Part shown: positions 3,171 through 33,467 of the stretch, piece by piece
Layout: each line of letters opens with the position of its first letter
Position numbering within the stretch: position 1 is the first letter of the stretch
DNA from: Alteromonadaceae bacterium
Lineage (GTDB): Bacteria; Pseudomonadota; Gammaproteobacteria; Enterobacterales; Alteromonadaceae
DNA length: 51,485 nucleotides
Direction of reading: 5' to 3'
Assembly: GCA_002691625.1 (NCBI GenBank)
Contig: NZIK01000027.1
Location: 196,417-247,901, forward strand
The notes under the pieces: model-generated
Told to the model about the DNA's origin: nothing
The model's input: the letters and a program-made list of their open reading frames with translations, nothing else
Database searches by the model: none
Translations under genes and position numbers: made by a program

Positions 3171-4253
3171 CTAGCGTAATTTCAACGTTGCCAAACCAAT
3201 CAATACCAGAATCAACGAGATGATCCAGAATCGCACAATCACCCGGGGTTCCGGCCAGCCTTTTAATTCGTAATGATGGTGAATGGGTGCCATGCGAAAA
3301 ATGCGTTGCCCGCGCAGCTTGTAAGAGCCTACCTGCATGATCACCGAGACGGTTTCCATTACGAACACGCCGCCCATAATAATTAGCACGATTTCCTGAC
3401 GTACCAGCACCGCCAGCACGCCCAGCGTTCCGCCAAGTGCCAGCGAGCCCACATCGCCCATAAAGACCATTGCCGGATAGGTGTTAAACCATAAAAAGCC
3501 CAGCCCGGCACCCACAATGGCGGTACACACAATAACCAGTTCACTGGTTAGCGGGATATGCGGAATATTCAGATAGCCGGAAAAGTTGGCGTTACCGGTG
3601 ACGTAAGCAAAAATAGCAAAAGCCCCGGCGACCAGGATTGTCGGCACAATGGCCAGGCCATCGAGCCCGTCAGTCAGGTTAACCGCGTTACTCGTGCCTA
3701 CCAGTGCAAAGTACACAATGGCGATATACAAAATGCCCAGTTGTGGCAGTACCTCTTTAAAGAACGGCACCAGTAAGGCCGTTTCTTCCATGGTTTGTGC
3801 AGAGGAATACAGATAAAACGCAACACAAAGAGCGATTACCGATTGCCAGAAATACTTCCAGCGGGCAATCAGGCCTTTTGAGTCCTTACGCACTACTTTT
3901 CGGTAATCATCGACAAATCCGATAATGCCAAAGGTAACCACTACGAATAAGGTTACCAACACATAGGTATTGGTTAAATCTGCCCATAGCAGCACACTGA
4001 TGACAATGGCCGCCAGAATGAGTAAACCGCCCATGGTAGGCGTACCAGATTTGGATAAGTGCGACTCAGGACCATCGGTGCGCACAGTCTGGCCAATCTG
4101 CATCCGTTGTAACCAGCGGATCATCTTCGGCCCAATAATAATGGCAATCAACAGCGCCGTCAGCGTACTCAGGATCGCTCTTAGCGTGAGGTACGAGAAG
4201 ACGTTAAAGCCAGATTCAAATTGTGTCAGCCAGTCGGCGAGCCATATTAACAT
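3171..4253 (-). CDS. mraY: MraY, phospho-MurNAc-pentapeptide translocase
   Basis: MraY is the ten-helix inner-membrane enzyme that transfers phospho-MurNAc-pentapeptide from UDP to undecaprenyl phosphate, giving lipid I. The 360 residues match the E. coli length. Visible signatures are the aspartate-rich FVDDYRKV near residue 115, [10 protein letters not shown] near 190 for Mg and catalysis, [12 protein letters not shown] near 265, and the histidine-rich [14 protein letters not shown] loop near 325. Hydrophobic segments alternate along the whole length. The ATG at 4253 lies inside murF, overlapping by 7 bases, which suggests translational coupling. It follows murF and precedes murD, the standard dcw order. 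Confidence 0.98.
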
Positions 4254-5653
4254 GCTATTTTCTCCCGCCGACGACTAAGCTTTCCCAGCGGCGATTTCTC
4301 CAACGCCGCTATGACATTTTCCATCCTCGCGCTGCGCGAGCCTTTCACCAGAATCGTTAAGTCTCTTTGCTCATGACCTAAATCCTGTTCCAGAGCCTCA
4401 ATCAGCGCGCTTTGCTCGCTAAAATGGTAGCCATTATCGCCAAAAGCAATTGAGGCACTCTGACTCAACACCCCGGAGGTGTATAAACAGTCGATGAATT
4501 TCTCTTTGGCATACTCACCAACCTGTTCATGGTAGTAACGGGCTTTTTCGCCCAGTTCCGCCATATCACCAAGGGCCAGCACCCGCCGACCAGAGAAGCT
4601 GGCCAGGGTGTCGATAGCCGCTTTAACGGATCCCACGTTGGCGTTATAGGTGTCGTCAAGAATTCGTACCTGCTCAGTGAGCGGCACTACTTTTAACCGT
4701 CCACCAACTGCCTGCATATCCTGCAAGCCATACTTAACGTCTTCCAGCGTAGCCCCAACGGCCATGGTCAGTGCCGCAGCAACCAGTGCATTGCCTACGT
4801 TGTGCATGCCTGGCACAGCCAGGCGAATATCAGTATTGCCCTGCACCGAGTGCATCTCAAATGCTGCGCAGCCATTCAAATCAATGGTGATGTCGGTAGC
4901 GTAAAAGTCGGCCTGGGAATTATGGTTATCCGGCGAAAAGGCTTGCACAGGCTGATATTTCAGTTTACCCAGCCAGAATTCAGCAAACTGACTGTCCTGG
5001 TTAACAATAGCCAGGCCTTTTTCGCCCAGCCCCTTAAAGATTTCGCTTTTGGCCCGGGCCACACCGAGTAAGCTGCCAAAGCCTTCGAGATGGGCTGCGG
5101 CTGCATTGACAATGGTTGCTACATCCGGTTTTACCAGATCAGTGGTATAGGCAATCTCACCGAGATGGTTAGCGCCCATTTCCACTACCGCGTACTCATG
5201 TTCCGGAGTCAGGCGCAGTAAGGTGAGTGGCACCCCGATTTCGTTGTTAAAGTTACCAGCGGTAGCCAGCACGTTGCCGCGCCGCGATAAGATAGCCGCG
5301 CACATTTCCTTAACAGTGGTTTTGCCACTGCTGCCGGTAATTCCAATGGTTTTAGGGTTTACTTCTGCTTTAACTGCTGCGCCAAGCTGGCCAAGTGCCA
5401 GTTTGCTATCTTCAACATAAATCACCGGCAGTTCGGTAGTCACCGGCTGACTGGCAATAACGGCCACTGCGCCGGCGTTTTCTGCGGCCTCAACAAATTG
5501 GTGACCGTCGAAGTTTTCGCCTTTTAGCGCAAGATATACGGCCCCCTGCGAGAGGGTTCGGGTATCAGTGCTCACGGCAGATACAGTGCAGTCTTCGCCA
5601 CTCAGACGACCTTTTATTTGCTCTGCTATCCACATCAAAGACCTGGTAATCAT
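4247..5653 (-). CDS. murF: MurF, UDP-MurNAc-tripeptide:D-Ala-D-Ala ligase
   Basis: MurF completes the cytoplasmic precursor by adding D-Ala-D-Ala to UDP-MurNAc-tripeptide. The protein has the N-terminal substrate domain ([16 protein letters not shown]), the ATP loop [13 protein letters not shown] near residue 105, the central [11 protein letters not shown], and the C-terminal domain with [11 protein letters not shown] and [11 protein letters not shown] chose the ATG at 5653. It gives a 4-base ATGA overlap with the murE stop and sits 8 bases after a clean AGGAG at 5662-5666. The longer reading from the GTG at 5662 would place the start codon on top of that ribosome-binding site. The chosen start gives 468 residues, usual for the family. 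Confidence 0.96.
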
Positions 5654-26254: not shown

Positions 26255-26513
26255 TACATTCTCCTTAACAGTTTCGATAAGTATAACCCTAACCGTGCAG
26301 AGAACCAGCGGTAAATACCAATCATTCCAATCACAATTAACGATTAAAGATAAAACTCTTAAACGTAAATAAAAATAACTCTTACCAGCTAGGGTATACG
26401 CATCAATCCCTTAATATAAATTGCAATGCCCGCCGTGAATGGATGCCGACATCCCGATAATCTATTATTTGTACAGGAATTAACGGGTGCTATGAGAGCA
26501 TTCCCGCAGTACA

Positions 26514-26602
26514 TGAAAAAGGCAAAACACTTCGAAAGGGTGTGACGCAAAACCTCCGGTCTACGTCGAAAGATAAGATAGCGGGGTTACCGAACACTGT
26601 GA
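26514..26602 (+). ncRNA. Cyclic di-GMP-I riboswitch (GEMM) aptamer
   Basis: The stretch shows the GEMM-I core in order. AGGCAAA stands at the 5' side (from 26520). A stem CACTTCGAAAGGGTG follows, capped by a C-GAAA-G tetraloop (26528-26542). Next come the invariant GACGCAAA (26544-26551), then CCTCCGG, the receptor helix with GTCGAAAGAT, and the closing GCGGGGTTACCG (26581-26592). The same blocks, in the same order, define the Vibrio Vc2 aptamer. It lies 96 bases upstream of the ParA-like gene on the same strand. A small hairpin (CGGGTGCT with AGCA/CCCG, 26484-26506) precedes it. Ligand specificity (c-di-GMP rather than cGAMP) depends on one position I did not assign. Confidence 0.92.
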
Positions 26603-26663
26603 AGTGGCGTGGCTTGCTTCCCCCGGCAGGCCAGCGATACTGACAGTCCGTTCACTTTTTTAT
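26599..26663 (+). terminator. Terminator-like expression platform of the riboswitch
   Basis: An outer stem GTGAA (26599-26603) pairs with TTCAC (26651-26655), which runs directly into six T residues. An inner stem GGCTTGC (26611-26617) pairs with GCAGGCC (26626-26632) with one G-U pair. The 5' arm starts in the 3' flank of the aptamer, so ligand binding could shift this fold. The direction (on or off switch) cannot be told by eye. Confidence 0.6.
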
Positions 26664-26697
26664 TACGTAATTGCGATTACTTAATGAGGATTGAACA

Positions 26698-27393
26698 ATG
26701 ATGATTTTAGTTGGTGGCGAGAAAGGTGGTAGCGGCAAGAGCTGTCTTGCACAGAACATCGCCGTATATTTACGCTGTGAGAAAAAGGCCAGTGTGCTGA
26801 TGGTGGATTGTGACCCTCAGCGAACCACGTCAGACTGGGCACAAGAGCGAAGCAGCAACGAAGAGCTGCCTTCCATCAACTGTATCCAGCTTTACGGCAA
26901 GATCCGCAATGAGCTGTTAAGCCTAAAAGAGCGCTACGACTACGTGGTTATCGACTGCGGTGGTCAGGATAACCTGGCACTGCGATCGTCTATGGCGGTT
27001 GCCGACCATATCTTGATCCCACTACGCCCGAAGCGCCGTGACCTTAAAACGGTACCGCACATGGAAGATATTTTATCGACCTGTAAGATGGTAAATCCGC
27101 GCATGAACGCGGCGTTTGTTATTACCCAGTGTCCTTCCCTGCCGTCATTGGCCCCGAGGATTCTGGAAGCCAAAGAAGTGTGTAGCTCCTTTGAAGTGCC
27201 AGTGTTAAATTCTGTCACCTTTAGTCGCAACATGTATGACGACTCTGAAGAGTCCGGCCGTTCGGTGCTGGAAAGTGAAGCTGATGGTAAAGCTGCCGTG
27301 GAAATTCGCAGTATCATTGAAGAGTTACTGGCCCGACGCAAAGGGGAACAACATGAGTCTGATAAGCCTGTCTCGCTCTACGCCGCAAGCTAA
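26698..27393 (+). CDS. Small ParA-family (type Ib-like) ATPase
   Basis: The 231-residue protein is a deviant-Walker ATPase. It has KGGSGKS near residue 9, the Walker A' aspartate in LMVDCDPQRTTSDW, and YVVIDCGGQDN as Walker B near residue 80. The adenine-side ILIPLRPKRRDLKT follows. It has no N-terminal DNA-binding domain, so it resembles the small type Ib partition ATPases (ParF-like) rather than chromosomal Soj. The initiating ATG is doubled (26698 and 26701) and GAGG lies 9 bases upstream. The next gene overlaps it by 41 bases and encodes a ribbon-helix-helix protein, the usual type Ib partner. Expression is predicted to depend on the c-di-GMP riboswitch directly upstream. What it partitions or positions is unknown; no plasmid genes are nearby. 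Confidence 0.85.
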   Translation: MMILVGGEKGGSGKSCLAQNIAVYLRCEKKASVLMVDCDPQRTTSDWAQERSSNEELPSINCIQLYGKIRNELLSLKERYDYVVIDCGGQDNLALRSSMAVADHILIPLRPKRRDLKTVPHMEDILSTCKMVNPRMNAAFVITQCPSLPSLAPRILEAKEVCSSFEVPVLNSVTFSRNMYDDSEESGRSVLESEADGKAAVEIRSIIEELLARRKGEQHESDKPVSLYAAS

Positions 27394-27655
27394 TCGAACC
27401 ACAACCAAAAGTATCAGTGCAGAGGAATTTATCCAGGACGCACTGCATTATGCCAGTGGTGCGGCAGTGCCCCTTACCGCTGTTGCAGAGCGGCAGGCTA
27501 ACGACTCCCATCATGAGCCAATGCGCAGAGCTACCTTTACGCTGACGCAGGAATGTATAGATCAGCTTCAGCAACTTTCAGAGCAAAGCGGTATAGCGAA
27601 ATCTAAACTGATCAGGCTATGGATCCAGCGCTACGCCAGTCTCAATTTTGATTAA
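27353..27655 (+). CDS. Ribbon-helix-helix protein, ParG/Omega-like partner of the ParA ATPase
   Basis: The 100-residue protein has a flexible, polar N-terminal half. Its C-terminal half (RRATFTLTQECIDQLQQL, then SEQSGIAKSKLIRLWIQRY) looks like a ribbon-helix-helix: one strand and two helices. Type Ib partition systems pair a small ParA with such a protein, whose unstructured N-terminus stimulates ATP hydrolysis and whose RHH dimer binds DNA. The ATG at 27353 has AGGGG just upstream and lies inside the parA frame, so translation is coupled. I found no clear iterated centromere-like repeats near the pair. It could also act as the operon's repressor. Confidence 0.7.
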   Translation: MSLISLSRSTPQANRTTTKSISAEEFIQDALHYASGAAVPLTAVAERQANDSHHEPMRRATFTLTQECIDQLQQLSEQSGIAKSKLIRLWIQRYASLNFD

Positions 27656-27804: not shown

Positions 27805-29946
27805 ATGATGTTAAACCGTGTTGGCCTGTTGTTGTCCTTGCTGTGCTGCTCTGTACCCGGATTAGCGCATTCAGTGCGCCACGTATCAATGGATGGACAC
27901 GCGTTCTATACCAGCGGCTTCAATGTTGAGAAACTGGTTAATCAGGGCGACACCCTGAAAGCCGAACGCCATATCCGCGAACAATTAGCACTGTCCAGGT
28001 CAGAACAAAACCAACGAGCCTCTGCTACGGGTGCGCACGCCTTAGGGCACATCTCACTGATTAAGAATAATTACCCGCTGGCATTGCGGCAGTTTCAGAG
28101 CGCCCTGGACTTCTTTAAAAGTGCCAGGGAGCCTCTTGGGATGGCCGATTTGTATACAGATATAGGCAGAACCTATCGGGTAATGGGTCTCTATCAGTCT
28201 GCTCTGGGTTACTTTAATCTCGCCAAAGATATTTATCATCAGCAGGGCCGTTACGACGGTATTGCCTTGCAACAGCTGGAAGTCGGTATTTCCCTGCGTC
28301 AGTTAGGCCAGTTTGAGAGCGCTTTAAGTCAGTTAGAGCGAGCGTTACCGTTACTCCGGCAGGAAAACAACAACCAGGCAACCGCGTCCACTCTGATGCA
28401 AATTGCCCGGGTATACAGCGAAATTGATAAAAACGATGAAGCCATGCTGTACCTGCAGGATGCCGCTGTACTGATTGATACCCTACAAATAAAAACCCTG
28501 CAAGCGGAGCTCGATTATCACCTTGGCCAGGTCAATATCCAAATGGGTCATTATGATAATGCCCGGCGCCATCTGGAACAGAGCAAAGACCAGTTCAGCC
28601 AGCTAGAAGCACAATGCGATGTGGCTAAAATAGACTCCAGTCTGGGTAATATACTGCTTAGCCAGGGTCAGCCGGAAGCCGGCATCCAACTGCTCGAGTC
28701 AAAACTTCAACAAGCGACCGAAAATAACTGCACTACCCTGTTGACCGAGCTTCACTTAACCCTGGCTCAGGCTTACCTCGGCAAAGATCAACAGGCACTA
28801 ACTGACCACATTGACCAGGGTTTGCAACAAGCTATAGAGAGGGGTGAATTACTCACTCAGGCGCGGTTTGAAGCAATAAAAATGCAAATGCATGAACAAA
28901 GCGGGGATTTTTCCGCAGCGCTTAACGCCCTCAAGCGCCAGCAACAGCTGGAAAAGCAAAGTCTTGAGCAACGTCGTTCGCTGGCGCTGCTATATCTGCA
29001 ATCGCAGCTGGATGTAGAGCGTCAGGCCCAATCGCTGGAACTGCTGAATAAAAACCAGGCCATTCAGCTGGCCAAGGCTGAACAGCAGGAGCTGGAAGTG
29101 CGGATGCTGTACGCGTCGTTATTTGCTGTCACCTTACTGGTGTTCTTGATCTGGAGCCGGTTTAATCATAGTCAGCGTTCGCGCTTTCTAAAGCGTGAAG
29201 TACGCCGGCGCACCCAGGAACTGGAATCAAAAAATGCCGAGTTGGAAAATGCCTACATTGCGCTGGAGCGGGCCAGCCTGATGGATCCGCTCACCGGTTT
29301 GTACAACCGTCAGTACCTGAATAATCAGTTACCACAGGAAATCCATCGCGCCCAGCAGGCCTATCTGTTATCCAGGGAAGGCACGCTTACCAACAGCCCC
29401 TCAGACATGCTTTGTTTTCTGCTCGACATTGATAATTTTAAACACATTAATGACACCTACGGTCATATGGCGGGCGACCGTATTTTAACCGATTTGGCGA
29501 AAGTGATGCGCTCAGTGTTCAGGCCTTCAGACATGCTTATCCGTTGGGGAGGTGAAGAATTTCTGGCGGTGTGCCGCAATACCAATCGACTTGAGGCGGT
29601 TGCCCTGGCAGAAAGGCTACGCCAGGGGATCCACGATCACGACTTTCATGTTAGCCAACAGCATAGCCTTCACATCACCTGTTCCATTGGTTTTTGTGTG
29701 CTACCACTATACCCCAGCGAACCTGCACGCCTCGACTGGGACAGTTACTTTGGTTTACTGGATGAATGCCTGTATGCGGCCAAGCGGTCCGGAAAAGACT
29801 GCTGGATAGGTTTAACCGGCGAGAAATCAGAGGCCGCTGACCGGCCGAAATCACGGTTGGAAGAAAAATTTGATTTACCGCCGACCAGGGTACAAACCTC
29901 TCTTAACCATTTATCAGCCATTAGCTGGGCTGAGCAAAGCAGTTAA
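27805..29946 (+). CDS. TPR-sensor diguanylate cyclase (GGDEF)
   Basis: The 713-residue protein starts with a signal-type helix (about residues 1-22) followed by about eight TPR repeats (roughly 45-385) predicted to be periplasmic. A coiled coil follows, then one membrane helix at 434-453, a second coiled coil, and a cytoplasmic GGDEF domain (about 490-665). The active site is GGEEF at residues 582-586. An RxxD product-inhibition site (RPSD) lies five residues before it, so it should be active and feedback-limited. It makes c-di-GMP from GTP. It begins 149 bases after the ParA/RHH pair on the same strand, with the c-di-GMP riboswitch upstream of that pair, so local control is possible. It is convergent with prsR. 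Confidence 0.92.
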   Translation: MMLNRVGLLLSLLCCSVPGLAHSVRHVSMDGHAFYTSGFNVEKLVNQGDTLKAERHIREQLALSRSEQNQRASATGAHALGHISLIKNNYPLALRQFQSALDFFKSAREPLGMADLYTDIGRTYRVMGLYQSALGYFNLAKDIYHQQGRYDGIALQQLEVGISLRQLGQFESALSQLERALPLLRQENNNQATASTLMQIARVYSEIDKNDEAMLYLQDAAVLIDTLQIKTLQAELDYHLGQVNIQMGHYDNARRHLEQSKDQFSQLEAQCDVAKIDSSLGNILLSQGQPEAGIQLLESKLQQATENNCTTLLTELHLTLAQAYLGKDQQALTDHIDQGLQQAIERGELLTQARFEAIKMQMHEQSGDFSAALNALKRQQQLEKQSLEQRRSLALLYLQSQLDVERQAQSLELLNKNQAIQLAKAEQQELEVRMLYASLFAVTLLVFLIWSRFNHSQRSRFLKREVRRRTQELESKNAELENAYIALERASLMDPLTGLYNRQYLNNQLPQEIHRAQQAYLLSREGTLTNSPSDMLCFLLDIDNFKHINDTYGHMAGDRILTDLAKVMRSVFRPSDMLIRWGGEEFLAVCRNTNRLEAVALAERLRQGIHDHDFHVSQQHSLHITCSIGFCVLPLYPSEPARLDWDSYFGLLDECLYAAKRSGKDCWIGLTGEKSEAADRPKSRLEEKFDLPPTRVQTSLNHLSAISWAEQSS

Positions 29947-29978: not shown

Positions 29979-31340
29979 CTAAACGCCGGTTTTCAAATCT
30001 TCCAGATGGTACTTATCGATTAGTGAATATAATGTAGGTCGGGTTACGCCCAGTAACTCCGCCGTTTTAGACATGTTCTTGTCGGCTCGCTGATAAGCCT
30101 TACGGATCGCTTTGCTCTCAGCCTGTTCACGCACTTCGCGCAGGTTGAGGATTTCACTTGCAAAATCTTCCGATGGCTCGAGCAGGCCCAGGTCGTCGGC
30201 CTGAATAACCGTGCCTTCTGCCATGATGACAGCAGATTTGAGTTTGTTCTGCAGTTCGCGAATGTTGCCCGGCCAGCGATGGGCCAGCATGGCTCTTATC
30301 GCGCCGTCACTGAAGCTCTTGGCTTTGGCATTAAATTCTTCGCGGTATTGATTCAGAAAAGTGCGCGCCAGTAATATAATATCCTGCTCACGTTCCCGTA
30401 GCGGCGGAATATTAATCGGGATTTCGCCGATACGATAGAATAAATCCTCACGGAAGGTTTCTTCCCCCACCATGGTCTGAATATCTCGGTGAGTGGCACA
30501 AATCACCCGAATATCCACCGGAATTTCATTTCTGCCGCCAACCCGTTCAATCACCCGCTCCTGCAGGAACCGCAACATCTTGGCCTGCAAGCCAATGGGC
30601 ATATCACCAATTTCATCGAGAAACAGTGTACCACCCTGCGCCGTTTCGATTTTACCTACGGTGGTTTTATTCGCGCCGGTGAAGGCCCCTTTTTCGTAAC
30701 CGAATAACTCACTCTCAAGCAGGTTTTCCGGGATTGAGGCACAGTTGATGGCCACAAAAGGCTGGTCTTTGCGGGGGCTGTGCTCGTGAATGGTGCGGGC
30801 AAAGACTTCTTTACCGGTACCACTTTCGCCCAGTAATAAGGTGCTGATGTCGGTACCGGCTATCTTTTCAGCTTTGCGCATCACGGTCTGGATAGCGTCA
30901 CTGTTGCCGATAATCCGCCCCATGGCTGGTCTTGTCTTAGCCAGGATCCGGTTTTCATCTTCCAGCTTGGCCAGGTTCAGCGCACGATTAATGAGCAGTT
31001 TTATGGTGTCGGAATCGATGGGTTTCTGATAAAAATCATAGGCACCAAAGTCGATGGCTTTCAGCGCGTTTTCTTTATCATTATTACCGGTTACCACTAT
31101 GACTTTGGTATTGGGCGCCAAAGCCAGAATTTCTTCCAGGGTTTTCAGGCCTTCTGAGGCGTTGGCCGGATCAGGCGGTAAGCCTAAATCAAGAGTCACC
31201 ACTTTGGGTTCGAACCGACGTAACTGCGCAATTGCAGAGGAACGATCGTCGGCGAAAACCACGTTAAAGTCGGTTAAACTCCATTTTAACTGCTTTTGAA
31301 TACCTAAATCGTCATCAACTACCAGGATGGTGTCACTCAT
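29979..31340 (-). CDS. prsR: PrsR, PEP-CTERM-type sigma-54 response regulator
   Basis: The 453-residue protein has three parts. The N-terminal receiver domain (1-125) has phosphoacceptor Asp in VVTLDLGLPP. The central AAA+ domain has GESGTGKE near residue 170, the sigma-54-contacting GAFTGA, and GTLFLDEIGDM. A Fis-type helix-turn-helix (MSKTAELLGVTRPTLYSLI) lies at the C-terminus. The FADDRSSAIAQLRRFEP region and pairing with the adjacent histidine kinase match PrsR, which activates sigma-54 promoters of PEP-CTERM/exosortase exopolysaccharide systems. None of the PEP-CTERM target genes are in the window. It follows prsK by 39 bases on the same strand, so they are co-transcribed. Confidence 0.88.
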   Translation of the reverse strand: MSDTILVVDDDLGIQKQLKWSLTDFNVVFADDRSSAIAQLRRFEPKVVTLDLGLPPDPANASEGLKTLEEILALAPNTKVIVVTGNNDKENALKAIDFGAYDFYQKPIDSDTIKLLINRALNLAKLEDENRILAKTRPAMGRIIGNSDAIQTVMRKAEKIAGTDISTLLLGESGTGKEVFARTIHEHSPRKDQPFVAINCASIPENLLESELFGYEKGAFTGANKTTVGKIETAQGGTLFLDEIGDMPIGLQAKMLRFLQERVIERVGGRNEIPVDIRVICATHRDIQTMVGEETFREDLFYRIGEIPINIPPLREREQDIILLARTFLNQYREEFNAKAKSFSDGAIRAMLAHRWPGNIRELQNKLKSAVIMAEGTVIQADDLGLLEPSEDFASEILNLREVREQAESKAIRKAYQRADKNMSKTAELLGVTRPTLYSLIDKYHLEDLKTGV

Positions 31341-31379
31341 ACTCTGTTTCCGTTTTCATTCTGCTCGATATTGACGTGT

Positions 31380-33404
31380 TTACTGAATGGGAAAGCCCAG
31401 CGTAAAGCAAGTGCCAATGTTTGGCTGGCTTTGTACCTGTAAATATCCGCCTATCGATTCCATATAGGTTTTTGCATCATATGCCCCGATGCCCATACCC
31501 GCGTTACCTTTAGTGGTATCGAAGGGCTTGAACAGGCGATGCTTTATAAATTCTTCATCCATTCCCGTGCCATTATCCTCAATAAACACGAGTTGGTGTT
31601 GCCGCTCTGTGTCCAGTACCAGCATAACTTCAATTTCACCGTCATCGGCACAGGCCTGCTGAGCGTTACTGATGAGATGATACATCACATTGGCAAACTT
31701 ATCCTGATCTACCACAACCTCGGTTTCTTCTTTTACCACAACCAGCGGCAGTGGTAATAACGACTGACAACGATTATCGACCACCTGTTTAATTAACAGT
31801 GATAAGGTGTGCGTGGCGTCGGCGCCTCGTTCTTCTACCTGTTTCTCTGTAAGCTGGCGCAGCATCCTGTCCATACGTGCTTTGGTATGATGCAGGGTTT
31901 CGAAGGTATCTTCAATAAATTCAGGGTTACCTTTATGCTGCTCTGCATTACACAGGATTAAGTCTATCTGTGCCAGTACATTCTTAAGATCGTGCAAAAC
32001 AAAGGCTGCCATGCGATTAAAGGCGGCGAATTGTGCATTCTCTGCTAATGACTGTGCCGCTTCATGCAGGTAAATAAAATTAGCAATTTGGTTAGTTACG
32101 GCATTTAAGTAGTCGCGCACCTCCCAGTTAAGTGACACTTTAGGTCTATCCACGGCACACAGTAATGCCAGCCCCCACATGTTGCCTTCGCGAATAAACG
32201 GAATAACCAGTTGCAAACGGTTAGTCTCGACCACTTTATTAGACAGCTTGAGTCCCTCGTACACATAAGGCTTGGTGCGATATTCATCGAGGTCGATTAG
32301 CCAGCCGGTTTTTTCGCAATACTCCCATAAGGGTTTAAGTGTCCCCTCAACTTCGGATAGCGGCATAAAGTGATGACTGCTCACCACATGAAAACCCGGT
32401 CCCTGCTTTTTGATCAGTGCGCCACTGTCGTAATTGATGGCCCCCATCACGCCTTCCAAGGCCATCTGGTACACACTGGGTAAAGACTGATCGTTTTGCG
32501 ACAGTACATTAGTCAATTTCACCCACTCTTCACGATAGTCAAACTGATTAGCAAAGAAGTGTTTGGTAATAAATACTTTAATGCGGGTGCGAAAGGTATT
32601 CGATAAAAACAGCGTGGCGAGCATGACCAGCGATAAGGCAATCAGTATAATTTGTACAGTGGCGCCCCAGCTCCAGCCCAGGTAACTGATAATGTAGCCC
32701 ATGGCTGCCATGATAAAGAGATACACCCCGGCCACCAGCAGCAATGAGCTGTGCAGCACTACATCACGGGAAATAAAGATATTCACGCCCCAGTGTTTTA
32801 TCCGCCGCGTAGCAATCACCAGAAACGGTAACATCAACAGGTAAATGTAACCGCGGGCAGCAATGAATCCGGGTTCCACATTGGCAATCATGGTGGAGTT
32901 GGCGTAAAACACAAACTCAAACAGATTGGTCGCCCCTAAATACAACGCCAGAGGCTTGTATGCCCACTGATCCTGGCCGACCTGACGGTAAAGCACTTCC
33001 AGCAGAATAAGCACTTCCAGTGCTATGAGGGTTTGCATGAGGAAATGCCAGGTGATATCAACCTGAATAAACCAGGGGCTCAACAGGGCTATTGCCGGAA
33101 CCAACAAGGCAAATATGGTCGCCGGCTGACGTAAGACCTGCCAAATGTTGGCAAAATCGTTTTTCAAACAGCTGGCAATAAACAGCAGCCAGATGCCCTG
33201 CTTGACCGTATCAGCCTGCAACAGATGAAAGACACTTAACGGGCCGCTTAACAGCGACACAAAGCTCAGCGACCAAAGCAGCGTAACCAGTGTGGCGAGG
33301 CTAAGCATGTATTTCGCCAGCCCCGGTTTACGCACCGTAAACAGCAGTAACAACAATACCAGGTAACCAATACTATTCAGGCCGTAGCCGATATCTGCAA
33401 TCAT
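31380..33404 (-). CDS. prsK: PrsK, membrane histidine kinase partner of PrsR
   Basis: The 674-residue sensor kinase has eight to ten membrane helices in residues 1-285, a GAF-like domain (about 300-440), and a HisKA-like segment with the phosphorylated histidine in AAFVLHDLKNVLAQI. The ATPase domain shows N-box MYHLISNAQQA and G-boxes DNGTGMDEEF and GMGIGAY. This layout, a large membrane sensor then GAF then kinase, and its neighbour PrsR mark the PEP-CTERM/XrtA system kinase PrsK. I chose the ATG at 33404, 7 bases after AGGA. The open frame extends to 33467, but the extra residues are polar and precede the first membrane helix without a ribosome-binding site. Confidence 0.87.
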   Translation of the reverse strand: MIADIGYGLNSIGYLVLLLLLFTVRKPGLAKYMLSLATLVTLLWSLSFVSLLSGPLSVFHLLQADTVKQGIWLLFIASCLKNDFANIWQVLRQPATIFALLVPAIALLSPWFIQVDITWHFLMQTLIALEVLILLEVLYRQVGQDQWAYKPLALYLGATNLFEFVFYANSTMIANVEPGFIAARGYIYLLMLPFLVIATRRIKHWGVNIFISRDVVLHSSLLLVAGVYLFIMAAMGYIISYLGWSWGATVQIILIALSLVMLATLFLSNTFRTRIKVFITKHFFANQFDYREEWVKLTNVLSQNDQSLPSVYQMALEGVMGAINYDSGALIKKQGPGFHVVSSHHFMPLSEVEGTLKPLWEYCEKTGWLIDLDEYRTKPYVYEGLKLSNKVVETNRLQLVIPFIREGNMWGLALLCAVDRPKVSLNWEVRDYLNAVTNQIANFIYLHEAAQSLAENAQFAAFNRMAAFVLHDLKNVLAQIDLILCNAEQHKGNPEFIEDTFETLHHTKARMDRMLRQLTEKQVEERGADATHTLSLLIKQVVDNRCQSLLPLPLVVVKEETEVVVDQDKFANVMYHLISNAQQACADDGEIEVMLVLDTERQHQLVFIEDNGTGMDEEFIKHRLFKPFDTTKGNAGMGIGAYDAKTYMESIGGYLQVQSQPNIGTCFTLGFPIQ

Positions 33405-33467
33405 TTGTTGTCCTACTGTTACACCGGGGCAGTTGTGGTGGGCCGCAGTATTTATCGATACTGCCAA

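Follow-up and report, generated by a model that had tools for sequence, protein, structure and literature searches.

Why should a gene pair of the plasmid-partition type stand behind an RNA sensor for the second messenger cyclic di-GMP (c-di-GMP)? The question is raised by a stretch of 51,485 nucleotides (nt) from an Alteromonadaceae bacterium (GenBank assembly GCA_002691625.1, contig NZIK01000027.1, positions 196,417 to 247,901), here called the window, in which a c-di-GMP-I riboswitch precedes a gene for a small ParA ATPase and an overlapping gene for a ribbon-helix-helix (RHH) protein. c-di-GMP decides between swimming and sessile life, and if it were indeed wired directly to a Walker-type partition ATPase, a signal of life-style could act upon the positioning of DNA or of another cargo. 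Comparison of the locus with its relatives suggests that an undescribed system for positioning, or for organising DNA, is under c-di-GMP control in some marine relatives of Alteromonas, and opens the question to direct tests in culturable marine strains. The elements concerned are these:

26511..26594, forward strand: c-di-GMP-I (GEMM-I) riboswitch aptamer (Rfam RF01051, 76.1 bits; model R1, 99.2 bits)
26592..26661, forward strand: expression-platform hairpin with a U6 tract, terminator-like (-28.3 kcal/mol, z -3.4)
26698..27393, forward strand: parA, a Walker-type ATPase, ParF-like and of type Ib size (Pfam AAA_31/CbiA)
27353..27655, forward strand: rhh, the ribbon-helix-helix partner, 100 amino acids (aa) (RHH_3, 24.5 bits, cut-off 21.6)

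The aptamer and its link to parA

The preliminary description of this DNA, made from its letters alone, had seen a clear GEMM-I aptamer with a terminator-like platform ahead of parA and the overlapping RHH gene, and had proposed a covariance-model search as a check. That search finds a strong, full-length match to RF01051 at 26511-26594 (E 2.9e-13; 76.1 bits, the gathering score being 35), the sole Rfam family above its cut-off in the whole window, and both the aptamer and the gene order stand as described. The covariance model built in this analysis, R1, gives 99.2 bits to the window aptamer, which is itself one of its seed rows. In the alignments A5 and A3, which hold 24 linked leaders (of the 26, L035 and L036 were omitted as identical to L034), the helices pair in 96.5% of 432 cells, against 30-40% for slid controls, and two-sided changes are seen at 6 of the 18 aptamer pairs (on average 3.8 in 500 shuffles, of which 3 reach 6); further pair types show no excess in these 24 aptamers (16 against 16.2 in shuffles). 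We rejected the possibility that the riboswitch serves the upstream peroxiredoxin gene, which lies on the opposite strand and is not a neighbour in many of the loci that keep the aptamer. Two RF01051 aptamers were found in the whole genome, the window's included. The second (L002, on contig C69, 1501-1579) has downstream of it an open reading frame (ORF; from 1730 on) that by eye resembles a fusion of an AraC-type and an HDOD domain, and on its other side a divergent gene that by eye resembles one for a PEP-CTERM protein.

The arrangement was followed in two sets of loci, L033-L104 and L108-L187, whose genomes are partly the same and whose names are those on their records. The first set derives from 146 related genomes, in which ParA proteins at least 52% identical to that of the window occupy 73 places in 67 genomes (the window and 72 of the 73 fetched places; L104, 37% identical, was excluded). 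An RF01051 scan, whose stricter filters can lose weak aptamers, and a reading of the upstream regions put a same-strand aptamer ahead of parA at 26 of these 73 places; all are in the window's genus (25 genomes) except the one in G062, which belongs to another genus. An RF01051 match of any kind is present in 27 genomes of the window's genus, and 25 of these have one immediately in front of this parA; the other two are G011, which has no such parA, and G049 (L038/L113), in which the contig ends at parA and which is counted in no receptor class. The second set holds 80 named loci, the best 80 of 383 from a scan of 84,980 species: 29 carry the aptamer as judged by R1, 28 carry a gene for a PilZ protein in its place, 22 carry neither and one (L113) was not classed. 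The named aptamer carriers include Alteromonas, Aestuariibacter, Salinimonas, Paraglaciecola and Ferrimonas.

These assignments agree with Rfam at the 11 loci cross-checked, where all nine R1-positive loci match, seven of them RF01051 and two best the variant RF03167 (c-di-GMP-I-GGC), and the R1-negative L119 and L164 do not. The two variant loci, L148 and L151, are from Ferrimonas; L153, from a record named Marinobacter nauticus, matches RF01051, and since the ParA tree places it with Ferrimonas this record may be mislabelled or the locus may be a transfer. In a further 47 fetched loci given to it, R1 found no aptamer close to parA. A weak or degenerate GEMM element in the riboswitch-less loci was rejected as well: over 48 sources, and the window aside, R1 gave only the unlinked L086 aptamer and two opposite-strand matches of 15-16 bits (E up to 1).

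In the Ferrimonas and Paraglaciecola loci the tested neighbours of the window do not flank the pair, save for one weak 32% response-regulator match (L157); the order of aptamer and parA is kept there, and rhh follows wherever the contig continues. Recurring at so many places, and being kept where the flanking genes differ, the link of aptamer and parA is not accidental. Its conservation, which the preliminary description had proposed to examine, thus holds in many related genomes and also with changed flanks, and does not hold in all of them.

The hairpin of the expression platform begins immediately after the last CC of the aptamer, has the base GAAC (26592) ... GUUC and ends in GUUCAC (26655), with the U6 tract (26656-26661) directly 3' of it. 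Its fold of -28.3 kcal/mol corresponds to z -3.4 against mononucleotide shuffles, and the entire leader has a moderate folding excess (z -2.18). The leaders compared with it were selected by the letters GAAAAAGGC, the resulting 26 being the linked matches of the RF01051 genome scan, so that the constancy of the GAAAAAGGC stretch is partly selection. All 26 have CUUUUU 3' of the aptamer, 19 have the GAAC...GUUC base and 18 have a hairpin at z -2 or lower; from the last CC of the aptamer to the parA ATG there are 75-146 nt (25 fetched leaders). When the aptamer core is enforced in constrained folding, the terminator stem reaches a probability of at least 0.9 in 17 of the 26 leaders, and enforcing the aptamer raises this probability by at least 0.08 in six leaders and lowers it in none. 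Additionally, the U-tract CUUUUU could pair with an A-tract, GAAAAAG, 5' of the aptamer, a pairing that would enclose aptamer and hairpin (26510-26661 and homologous leaders); with the aptamer enforced, the mean probability of this pairing is 0.62-0.94 in 25 of the 26 leaders and 0.04 in L079. From the effect of the enforced aptamer on the terminator stem we lean weakly towards an OFF switch, in which bound c-di-GMP would give less ParA and RHH, the lean being weak because a competing antiterminator is not evident.

A PilZ gene in the place of the riboswitch

PilZ is the classic family of c-di-GMP receptor proteins. Outside the riboswitch lineage, a PilZ gene lies directly upstream of parA at 14 of the 73 places, and a profile search of the upstream stretch at every fetched place returned the same 14 loci. 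The encoded proteins have about 100 aa and all 14 match Pfam PilZ at E up to 0.001; for the one protein that was compared with the Pfam cut-off, the score is 34.7 against 22.5 bits. The c-di-GMP signature of PilZ is RxxxR ... DxSxxG, and in the 14 sequences both arginines of the first part and the D and G of the second are invariant, the S being present in 12. Between the PilZ stop codon and parA there are 10-138 nt. In L081 the PilZ-parA-rhh trio lies between radC and rpmB, a context that, by ORF cluster, is common to eight loci; on the same measure the PilZ-parA loci have at least five flanking contexts, and these different flanking clusters indicate that the association is not tied to one location. 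The 28 named PilZ carriers belong to Colwellia, Thalassotalea, Shewanella, Pseudoalteromonas and their kin. No locus carries both receptors, either among the 73 places or among the 80 named loci. A search of 17 genomes for a relative of the parA-linked PilZ found one in five of them; five other genomes in this search were of the window's genus, and these had none.

A ParA tree of 96 rows was made by a quick method, which left 41 of its 90 inner branches open. It contains a riboswitch part and a large PilZ part, and the two Pseudoalteromonas rows stand away from these. The receptor labels change 8 times on this tree against a shuffled mean of 45, a difference that near-copies help. Several groups with neither receptor lie inside the riboswitch part, for example A. 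abrolhosensis/A. marina and Bowmanella/Lacimicrobium; most simply these would be losses, several gains being the alternative. In the sample of the order, two ParA paralogues are present in 26 of the 29 genomes with matches that belong to the family coded f6; in G092, one paralogue (L096) has a PilZ gene upstream and the other (L097) has none. This family looks like Shewanella because L096 groups with named Shewanella rows.

Two unrelated kinds of receptor heading the same cassette in related lineages make an unusually strong comparative argument for c-di-GMP as its input. The proposal of the preliminary description, that such a pair would link the c-di-GMP level to the positioning of DNA or of a protein cargo, is partly supported. 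The two refuting conditions of that description that could be computed did not come true, the covariance-model match being strong and the riboswitch-parA order being conserved in many, though not all, related genomes, and the link to c-di-GMP is strengthened by a PilZ gene in the same spot that had not been foreseen. If true, this would be a natural case of an RNA and a protein sensor of one ligand in equivalent places.

The ParA-RHH pair, its plasmid relatives and its neighbours

The window ParA, of 231 aa, matches Pfam AAA_31 at 65 bits and also MipZ and CbiA. By sequence, its nearest solved structures are 5u1g (ParA) and 4dzz (ParF); it aligns to ParF over nearly its full length (residues 9-212), and, as expected of type Ib, it is small and has no N-terminal helix-turn-helix (HTH). 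The deviant Walker A motif KGG(S/T)GKS, D37 and D86 are kept in 22 of 22 diverse ParA rows (alignment A1), and identity across families is mostly 66-93%, with 52-60% in three rows. For the ParA family partition ATPase model NF041546 the score is 143.7, below its cut-off of 180. An adjacent RHH partner, the other mark of type Ib, is present in 69 of 72 fetched parA loci; in the window the rhh ATG overlaps parA by 41 nt, and among the fetched loci 49 have an overlap of 41 nt and 14 have one of 14 nt.

The RHH protein is less conserved than ParA. It keeps an N-terminal motif, MSL..LKKSxPxxK...SVDxFIxDAxxYAxG, which is followed by a variable linker and the RHH part (alignment A4, 57 of the 70 available rows). 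In a profile search it matches CopG, and CdbA of Myxococcus is not among its nine sequence matches. The AlphaFold model of the window protein (mean pLDDT 74.6, pTM 0.40) places one helix in the N-terminal motif, at 23-35, and two at the C-terminus with pLDDT about 90, with low confidence in the stretch between. With this model Foldseek ranks CopG best (probability 0.97, TM 0.86 over CopG, E 0.46), gives no match at E 0.001 and places CdbA (6sbw) at rank 23 of 35 with probability 0.18; the model supports an RHH fold for the C-terminal part.

At E up to 1e-60, the ParA subfamily occurs in 3 of 369 genomes of a class-wide sample, all three in the window's own family, and in 67 of 394 genomes of a sample of the order. 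The closest ParA relatives found outside the order, 56% identical, are on Acinetobacter plasmids. In the one such region examined parA adjoins repM, and the 99-aa partner matches the window RHH profile at the N-terminal motif and at the RHH part, scoring 19.5 bits for Pfam RHH_1, just below the cut-off of 20.5; the plasmid ParA, at 135.9 bits, is likewise below 180 for NF041546. Phage relatives such as gp46/gp47 of phiSG1 have a ParA about 44% identical, and the match of the phiSG1 partner to the RHH profile is at chance level. The basic stretch RPKRRD of ParA was tried as a mark of c-di-GMP control and rejected, since the Acinetobacter plasmid ParA has it too. Because the closest outside relatives found are plasmid partition genes, parA-rhh is best read as a plasmid-type Ib (ParF/ParG-like) cassette that would have been domesticated on the chromosome. 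That a plasmid-derived cassette of this type has been brought under c-di-GMP control there seems to us rather probable.

Around the pair, three further features come into play:

26408..26430, forward strand: candidate promoter/operator box CCCTTAATATAAATTGCAATGCC, from upstream regions read by eye
26667..26680, forward strand: inverted repeat GTAAT-TGCG-ATTAC, between the U-tract and the start codon, read from the sequence
27805..29946, forward strand: gene for a TPR-GGDEF diguanylate cyclase (Pfam GGDEF, 131 bits)

The GGDEF gene, unmentioned in the preliminary description, lies 150 nt downstream of rhh on the same strand and is possibly co-transcribed with the pair. It is found beside parA in most Alteromonas loci, riboswitch or not, and is not next to parA in L039, L042, L053, L080, L103 and in loci of several other genera. 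At 29979-33467, adjoining the parA-rhh-GGDEF unit, follow the PEP-CTERM/XrtA response regulator PrsR and histidine kinase PrsK, both above their NCBIfam cut-offs. The same neighbourhood is present in 42 of the 43 fetched loci of the window's genus, in which ParA is at least 79% identical to that of the window. It recurs with a diverged ParA in L102 and L103, whose ParA relatives (4001-4690 and 4001-4678) are in the syntenic position, have no RHH partner beside them and are the most diverged of the strong relatives, that of L102 being also without the usual DCDPQ segment. In L063 (G041:C1:3325735-3344800), from a riboswitch-less genome of the genus Alteromonas, there is a tandem abh-prx-parA-rhh-GGDEF block with copies about 11 kb apart.

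By eye, CCCTTAATATAAATTGCAATGCC resembles CATTCGTTAATATCGATTTTGATGC, which is well kept in riboswitch-less Alteromonas. Searched in five genomes with up to 3 mismatches, CATTCGTTAATATCGATTTTGATGC occurs only ahead of parA in G020 and G041, and was not found in G000, G014 and G040. A repeat of the GTAAT-TGCG-ATTAC form is present in 10 of 25 fetched leaders and not in the other 15; the repeat at 26667-26680 is a possible operator for RHH.

Possible mechanism, alternatives and known systems

In the ParF-ParG mechanism, ATP-dependent nucleoid binding is combined with stimulation by the RHH tail, and by this analogy we infer the same two activities here. ParA would be expected to bind the nucleoid with ATP, the RHH protein to bind a local operator or centromere, and the conserved N-terminal segment of RHH to engage ParA and trigger hydrolysis, the resulting ParA dynamics serving to position a cargo. 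In the lineage of the window the riboswitch in the parA leader would act most likely by transcription attenuation at the hairpin and U-tract; in the related lineages the PilZ protein encoded upstream of parA takes its place and probably acts directly on the proteins. On this account the locus would encode an undescribed chromosomal ParA system for positioning or nucleoid organisation, with c-di-GMP setting its amount or activity and with an RNA and a protein receptor exchanged at the head of the operon, a tentative reading to which we give not quite an even chance.

Several observations weigh against it. At 32 of the 73 places, the A. abrolhosensis/A. marina group included, neither receptor lies upstream of parA, and together with the 22 of 80 named loci this indicates that a c-di-GMP input of either kind is dispensable. 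Some relatives of the PilZ protein are not linked to a parA of this family: that of G136 lies on another contig than the parA of this genome, and a weak one is present in G063. An RHH partner was not found in L102, L103 and L104, where ParA is 55%, 52% and 37% identical. The box is not dispersed in the five genomes searched, which leaves a classic multi-site parS unsupported. As to the platform, a simple terminator and promoter scan did not report the hairpin at 26592-26661, the hairpin has z above -2 in 8 of the 26 leaders, and the tested stem does not form in five, not being the stem there. Constrained folding of the 26 leaders gave no clear mutually exclusive antiterminator, and since aptamer and hairpin coexist in the fold model without one, switching is left unexplained.

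It is possible, although we rather doubt it, that ParA-RHH is a regulator and not a positioner: RHH would repress or activate its own operon and perhaps its neighbours (prsK/prsR, GGDEF), ParA would tune DNA binding and c-di-GMP would set the amount. This would suit a conserved box that, in the genomes searched, is at the parA locus only, and the adjoining PrsR and PrsK: in the genus, 42 of the 43 fetched loci have a prsR match downstream, and most have GGDEF. However, the loci of Ferrimonas and Paraglaciecola (the weak match in L157 aside) and the PilZ loci have the pair but not those neighbours, and the retention of the ParA ATPase motifs and of mostly 66-93% identity is more than a mere co-repressor seems to need. 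The GGDEF gene is also central to the improbable case that the riboswitch mainly serves this gene as a feedback on c-di-GMP synthesis, with parA-rhh as passengers on the transcript; its strand, its distance of 150 nt and its similar place in most Alteromonas loci would fit, whereas L039 (G051) and L042 (G016), and likewise L148, L151, L153, L155 and L157 (Ferrimonas, Paraglaciecola), keep riboswitch and parA without an adjoining GGDEF relative, and the GGDEF gene stays in riboswitch-less Alteromonas.

Finally, plasmid and phage partition genes being the closest outside relatives found, the pair might be no more than what is left of a plasmid or integrated element, and the riboswitch a functionless accident of the lineage. 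We regard this as very improbable: the constancy of the neighbourhood in the genus and of its ParA, an aptamer kept with two-sided changes and with changed flanks, and the recurrence of PilZ in the other lineage all speak against it.

BcsQ/YhjQ, MipZ and FlhG are ParA-like proteins tied to c-di-GMP processes or to the pole, and share the ParA/MinD superfamily with the window ParA; however, to our knowledge these systems have no RHH partner, and the window ParA scores 35 bits for the BcsQ model TIGR03371 against a cut-off of 158. Closer is ParF-ParG of plasmid TP228, in which a small ParA without HTH is likewise followed by an RHH DNA-binding gene, ParG having an N-terminal tail. The available parts of PMC7308502, PMC5389482 and PMC5393062 give this RHH protein as the partner of ParF. 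In contrast to TP228, window-type pairs are chromosomal and, in our samples at E up to 1e-60, confined to one order, often stand behind a c-di-GMP riboswitch or a PilZ gene, and have no centromere repeats identified at them. The Acinetobacter plasmid pair shares with them a ParA 56% identical and a homologous partner, N-terminal motif included; it and the phiSG1 pair differ in lying on plasmids or phages beside replication genes (two regions fetched), and in the one Acinetobacter region no PilZ gene is annotated upstream, a riboswitch search not having been run there.

Regarding the RNA, Cd1 is a c-di-GMP-I OFF riboswitch and the related pilM cGAMP switch is ON, according to the part of PMC9262584 available to us; these switches resemble that of the window in having related aptamers and transcriptional control, and differ in that their targets, as given there, are flagellar or pilus genes and not a partition pair. 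The open-access literature searched yielded no description of a riboswitch-parA or PilZ-parA-RHH system, subscription papers being largely outside the search, and a Bdellovibrio match, in the excerpt available, concerned growth-phase genes only. The remark in the preliminary description that no such system had been described holds within that literature, in which CdbA/CdbS of Myxococcus is the nearest precedent found. In the excerpts available, CdbA of Myxococcus xanthus is an RHH nucleoid-associated protein that itself binds c-di-GMP (PMC7156744), and CdbS is the PilZ protein of its system (PMC10313047), so that there too an RHH and a PilZ protein connect c-di-GMP with nucleoid organisation. 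The excerpt of PMC7156744 mentions no dedicated ParA partner for CdbA, and whereas CdbA, on the same excerpt, binds c-di-GMP itself, window-type loci would use a riboswitch or a separate PilZ gene as the receptor.

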